NCBI GenBank assembly: GCA_944390265.1
Contig: CALXPK010000037.1
Coordinates: forward strand, 1 to 41,956
Source of the DNA: an uncultured Alphaproteobacteria bacterium
Lineage (GTDB): Bacteria; Pseudomonadota; Alphaproteobacteria; RF32; CAG-239
Length of the DNA: 41,956 bases
Direction of reading: 5' to 3'
Positions within the stretch are counted from its first letter, which is position 1. Every line of letters begins with the position of its first letter. The notes below the pieces were generated by a model. The model saw only the letters and a list, made by a program, of their open reading frames with translations. It was not told the origin of the DNA and did no database searches. This document shows positions 41,345 through 41,833 of this stretch, piece by piece. The position numbers and the translations under genes are program-made.

Positions 41345-41833
41345 TTAATGATTGGCGTTGTTCAAAATGCGCTGTTTGTCGCGGTTCCAATCTCGCTCTT
41401 TGGTGGCTTCGCGCTTGTCATACATTTTTTTGCCGCGTCCCAAGCCAATTTCCAGTTTGGCTCGCCCTTTGTCATTGAAAAATAGTTTGATTGCTATCAG
41501 TGTTGCTCCTTTGCGCGCCAAGGCGTTGATGATGTCTATTATCTCTTTTTTCTTCAAAAGCAATTTGCGGTCGCGTTTTTCAACATGGCTCTCATAGCCC
41601 TTGTTGGCATATTCGGCAATGAACATGTTGGACATATATAACTCGCCGTTTTTTTCCACGCCATAGGCATCATTGATGTTGGCATGGCCCAACCGCAAAG
41701 ATTTGACCTCGGTTCCGCTTAATTGCAAACCGGCAATGTATTTTTCTTCTATCAGATAATCAAAATGGGCGCGGCGGTTTTGGTCTACGACGCCGGTGCT
41801 GATTTAGTCAGTTTTTTTCTTTTTTTCTGCCAT
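41345..41833 (-). CDS. smpB: SsrA-binding protein SmpB, interrupted by in-frame TAA at codon 10
   Basis: SmpB binds tmRNA and brings it to stalled ribosomes (trans-translation). The full frame is 162 codons from ATG 41833: MAEKKKKTD, then TAA (41804-41806), then [20 protein letters not shown] and [20 protein letters not shown], the normal SmpB N-terminus with its tmRNA-binding strands. The body (YGVEKNGELYMSN, IAEYANKGYESHVEKRDRKL, LKKKEI, KGATLIAIKLFF) and C-terminal tail (KMYDKREATKERDWNRDKQR) that reads the mRNA channel are intact. Without readthrough the next in-frame start, TTG 41728, would lose about 26 core residues. An ISTGVV-type segment directly after the TAA shows that real coding sequence lies on both sides. 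Convergent with uvrB, 31 bases apart. Confidence 0.88.

Follow-up and report, generated by a model that had tools for sequence, protein, structure and literature searches.

An in-frame TAA codon near the start of an alphaproteobacterial smpB gene is most likely an error at a metagenomic contig end

Introduction

The gene for release factor 2 (RF2, prfB) is autoregulated through a conserved UGA codon at which +1 frameshifting takes place. In Thermus SmpB, NRRA is preceded by just a few residues. ATC is very rare as a start codon. In Caulobacter, ArfB is essential once trans-translation has been lost (PMC8012679). Overlaps between contig ends of the type left by de Bruijn assembly have also been described (PMC10914622).

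Here we analyze a smpB gene that carries an in-frame TAA at codon 10. The window, by which we mean the whole stretch of DNA analyzed, is the entire contig C37 (41956 bp) of a draft genome, G000 (77 contigs, 1.47 Mb, 86% complete), and the end of the window is the end of the contig. The original prediction had offered three readings of the stop, namely a wrong base, a dead gene, and UAA readthrough by which SmpB would regulate itself, the last being the one of most interest to it. We find that the wrong base is the best supported of these, on the strength of the degraded contig end and of a sense codon in 79 of 79 relatives, that a dead gene is possible but unlikely, and that readthrough finds no support.

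Results

The gene and two suspect codons within it lie close to the end of the window.

41345..41833, minus strand: smpB (SsrA-binding protein), from the ATG at 41833 to the TAA at 41345, with a further TAA at codon 10
41804..41806, minus strand: in-frame TAA, smpB codon 10; Phe, Tyr or Leu in 79/79 relatives; most likely a base-call or assembly error
41783..41785, minus strand: smpB codon 17, GAC (Asp), a second suspect base; at base 2 all 79 relatives have C, and C40 reads GGC

Translation of the window gave ATG GCA GAA AAA AAG AAA AAA ACT GAC TAA ATC AGC on the minus strand at the start of smpB, and the TAA is present where it had been predicted. A complete SmpB follows codon 10, its translation ending in RILNNANH*, and this portion scored well above cut-off against both Pfam PF01668 (170.8 bits) and NCBIfam PRK05422 (181.5 bits). 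The product is thus assigned to the SmpB family by a domain match over the curated cut-off. Because the frame is clearly smpB, chance is not at issue for the in-frame TAA; what is at issue is whether its bases are correct. The first in-frame ATG, GTG or TTG past the stop is a TTG at 41728, which is codon 36, so that the predicted loss of the first 36 residues was about right. We found no second intact smpB in the genome, which gave one match plus a fragment at the end of contig C40 that is the other side of the same locus, and a search for the locus in viral contigs found nothing. At the opposite end of the window, a 142-aa open reading frame (1668-2096, plus strand) resembles, judging from its sequence, an IS200/IS605-type transposase.

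We took 80 smpB loci from public genomes, and codon 10 was readable in 79 of them. The codon was TTT in 54, TAT in 13, TTC in 6, TTA in 5 and TAC in 1, giving Phe in 60, Tyr in 14 and Leu in 5, and a stop in none of the 79. All 4 congeners with a smpB match had TTT. A sense codon in relatives, which the original prediction had itself named as refuting evidence, was thus largely borne out. The alignment at this position is secure, because the residue at codon 11 is Ile in 79/79. Nearly all relatives have an ATG at the usual start followed by an open frame, and residues 2-8 form a basic tail that varies among them. A single TAA reported within the smpB match of G007 proved to be the normal terminal stop; the equivalent of codon 10 there is TAT.

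The closest relative, G001 (locus L032), shares 89% DNA identity across the body of smpB, and its N-terminal stretch, MAEKKKKSDFISTGVVAQNRRAH, was aligned against the stop-containing version in the window. Across codons 18-163, the two genes differed at 42 synonymous codons and at 4 codons with replacements, all conservative, and each of the 4 residues in these 146 codons occurs in other relatives. Three replacement changes, namely S8T, A17D and the stop, fell within the first 17 codons. No relative had the stop of codon 10 or the Asp of codon 17, and these two positions both lie within these 17 codons, at the contig end. Fisher's tests for clustering of replacements in the first 17 codons gave p = 0.026 per codon and p = 0.058 relative to synonymous changes, values that are suggestive only.

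Two further features lie between smpB and the end of the contig.

41882..41917, minus strand: terminator-like inverted-repeat hairpin in the bactofilin/smpB intergenic region; outer arm (41902-41909) broken in the window, intact in C40 and in relatives
41912..41956, no strand assigned: T/C smear at the contig end (last ~45 bases), contradicted by the overlapping C40 and by relatives

Some ~150 bases separate the TAA from the end of C37, probably no more than about one read length, and the final ~170 bases of the contig are prone to error. A hairpin of the form GTTCAGAA...TTCTGAAC stands between bactofilin and smpB in 3 of 4 congeners, and its outer arm in the window reads GTACAAAA and is broken. 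The hairpin GTTCAGAA/TTCTGAAC is flanked by runs of A and T, is conserved, being found also at L032 and L033, and resembles a bidirectional terminator. It may have caused the break in the assembly.

At the end of contig C40 are a gene that, judging from its sequence, resembles bactofilin, the hairpin in intact form, and the initial ~24 codons of smpB, and joining C40 to C37 restores the gene order of L032. The two contigs overlap over 191 bases without gaps at 85.3% identity, and each deteriorates toward its own end in its own style of error. Of the 14 C37 letters at mismatches in its outer 60 bases, 13 were A on the sense strand, while toward the end of C40, 9 of its 15 letters at mismatches were G, and the ATG of smpB appears there as AGG. 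At base 2 of codon 17, C37 has A, C40 has G, and every relative has C, a discord that would be expected if each contig had erred in its own style at a single base. A change from TTT to TAA at codon 10 would likewise consist exclusively of changes toward A. C40 also reads GACTAAATCAGCAC at codon 10; it is a weak witness, because no more than about 46 bases lie between the codon and its own degraded end. S8T is common to both contigs, the flanks of GACTAAATCAGCAC differ between them, and the exact stretches shared around the codon are short. In the genus-invariant columns of codons 7-24, C37 was never the lone deviant.

For each of the 77 contigs of the genome, we examined the terminal 600 bases on either side. 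Repeats at contig ends gave exact overlaps of 126-127 bases, a length that indicates de Bruijn assembly with a k-mer size near 127. Six pairs of adjoining ends overlapped inexactly, five of them (C63/C66, C72/C7, C36/C76, C43/C6 and C34/C70) over 44-96 bases and the sixth being C37/C40. In both pairs that were checked base by base against relatives, the errors were confined to one end: one-sided errors numbered 5 in C63, over 51 invariant dgt columns, and 9 in C6, over 54 invariant feoB columns (both genes named from sequence). No non-synonymous error was common to both contigs in these dgt and feoB control overlaps. The start codon of fliI is TAG in C36 and TTG in both C76 and the relative L283; false stops at contig ends do, therefore, arise in this assembly. 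The last 30 bases at the 3' end of C9 are Illumina adapter. The fabF-like copy that precedes the adapter differs from C23 at synonymous sites only, and the discord between C23 and C9 therefore looks like strain variation and not error.

It is possible, though we consider it unlikely, that the TAA is a real and recent nonsense mutation, in the whole population or in one strain, that abolishes or strongly lowers SmpB. The TAA and the neighboring S8T are present in both overlapping contig ends, C37 is not the lone deviant in any of the coding columns, and one base change would turn the TAT, TAC or TTA of some relatives into TAA. The codon of the congeners, however, is TTT, two changes away, and the unusual residues are grouped at the contig end rather than spread along the whole of smpB. 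The remainder of the gene, with its preponderance of synonymous differences, is still constrained; testing smpB as a pseudogene revealed no relaxed constraint over the gene, although a very recent loss would leave no such sign. The genome also encodes an alphaproteobacterial tmRNA, and neither ArfA nor ArfB was found in it at 86% completeness. The search of this draft with the RF-1 domain, which yielded no ArfB-like protein, returned one release factor and a second match cut by the end of contig C32. This second match (G000:C32:13342-13469) is presumably RF2. A dead smpB with no back-up would be surprising, because Caulobacter needs ArfB when trans-translation is lost. Of the case for a dead gene, what stood was the TAA at the end of C40; the retained tmRNA, the lack of a detected ArfA or ArfB, and the mainly synonymous differences in smpB told against it.

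We regard it as very improbable that the TAA is real and that smpB is expressed regardless, with UAA readthrough or initiation one codon further on serving as a control of ribosome rescue peculiar to this species. A real stop that was read through would represent a previously unreported way of controlling the principal ribosome-rescue system. The form of this idea in which the TAA is harmless, with a non-standard start or reinitiation at the ATC of codon 11 giving an SmpB that lacks its variable N-terminal tail, draws on the variability of residues 2-8 in relatives and on the Thermus protein, which starts just a few residues ahead of NRRA. We judge it extremely unlikely, given the rarity of ATC starts and the normally placed ATG and open frame of nearly every relative. 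Programmed readthrough regulating the level of SmpB is scarcely credible: the in-frame stop and the intact frame downstream of it are consistent with it and nothing further is, whereas the stop is conserved in 0 of 79 relatives, TAA closes 14 of the 24 window genes checked and is the commonest terminator among them, the RNA around the codon is not unusual (fold z = -1.25, with only a 4-bp hairpin around the stop), and RF2, as far as its autoregulation is known, relies on frameshifting at UGA and not on UAA readthrough. The self-regulation favored by the original prediction thus found neither conservation nor RNA structure behind it. A change in the genetic code was rejected, TAA being the terminal stop of those same 14 genes.

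Discussion

The stop in smpB is, most likely, a base-call or assembly error. It lies at a contig end, in degraded sequence that conflicts with the overlapping contig; the relatives are free of it, and like errors occur at other ends of the same assembly. We infer that the bases at this site are incorrect, with low-quality reads as the cause. The region just upstream of smpB, with its long A/T runs and hairpin, would be a gap in the draft, and the ends of C40 and C37 that meet at this gap would have been extended by low-quality reads. The true gene most likely has a Phe codon (or Tyr or Leu) at position 10 and would encode an ordinary SmpB that works with an ordinary alphaproteobacterial tmRNA.

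The agreement of C37 and C40 on TAA requires either reads that are linked or systematically in error, or a real TAA. Independent identical double errors are unlikely, because GACTAAATCAGCAC stands in both contigs with differing flanks and the control overlaps had no shared non-synonymous error. Under the preferred reading of a contig-end error, both tails may derive from linked reads, for example from a single poor fragment sequenced at its two ends or from reads that were mutually corrected. With six pairs of adjoining ends mutually discordant, claims about single codons cannot safely rest on the final ~200 bases of a contig from this genome.

Compared with alphaproteobacterial SmpB (PF01668/PRK05422), the gene in the window is alike in its whole conserved domain, in the tmRNA of its genome, and in the bactofilin - smpB order, which is that of the closest relative; it differs by the TAA at codon 10 and the Asp at codon 17, both absent from the 79 relatives. 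With the autoregulation of RF2 (prfB) it shares an early in-frame stop in a gene of termination or rescue. There, however, the UGA is conserved and accompanied by a +1 frameshift, whereas the smpB stop lacks conservation and would call for no frameshift. The likeness to contig-end errors of short-read metagenomes extends to the position at a contig end, the low-complexity smear, the mismatching overlap with the adjoining contig, and, at other contig ends of this assembly, the adapter remnant and a false stop codon. The present case differs from such errors in that one and the same suspect codon stands in both of the meeting ends, an unusual outcome for independent errors.
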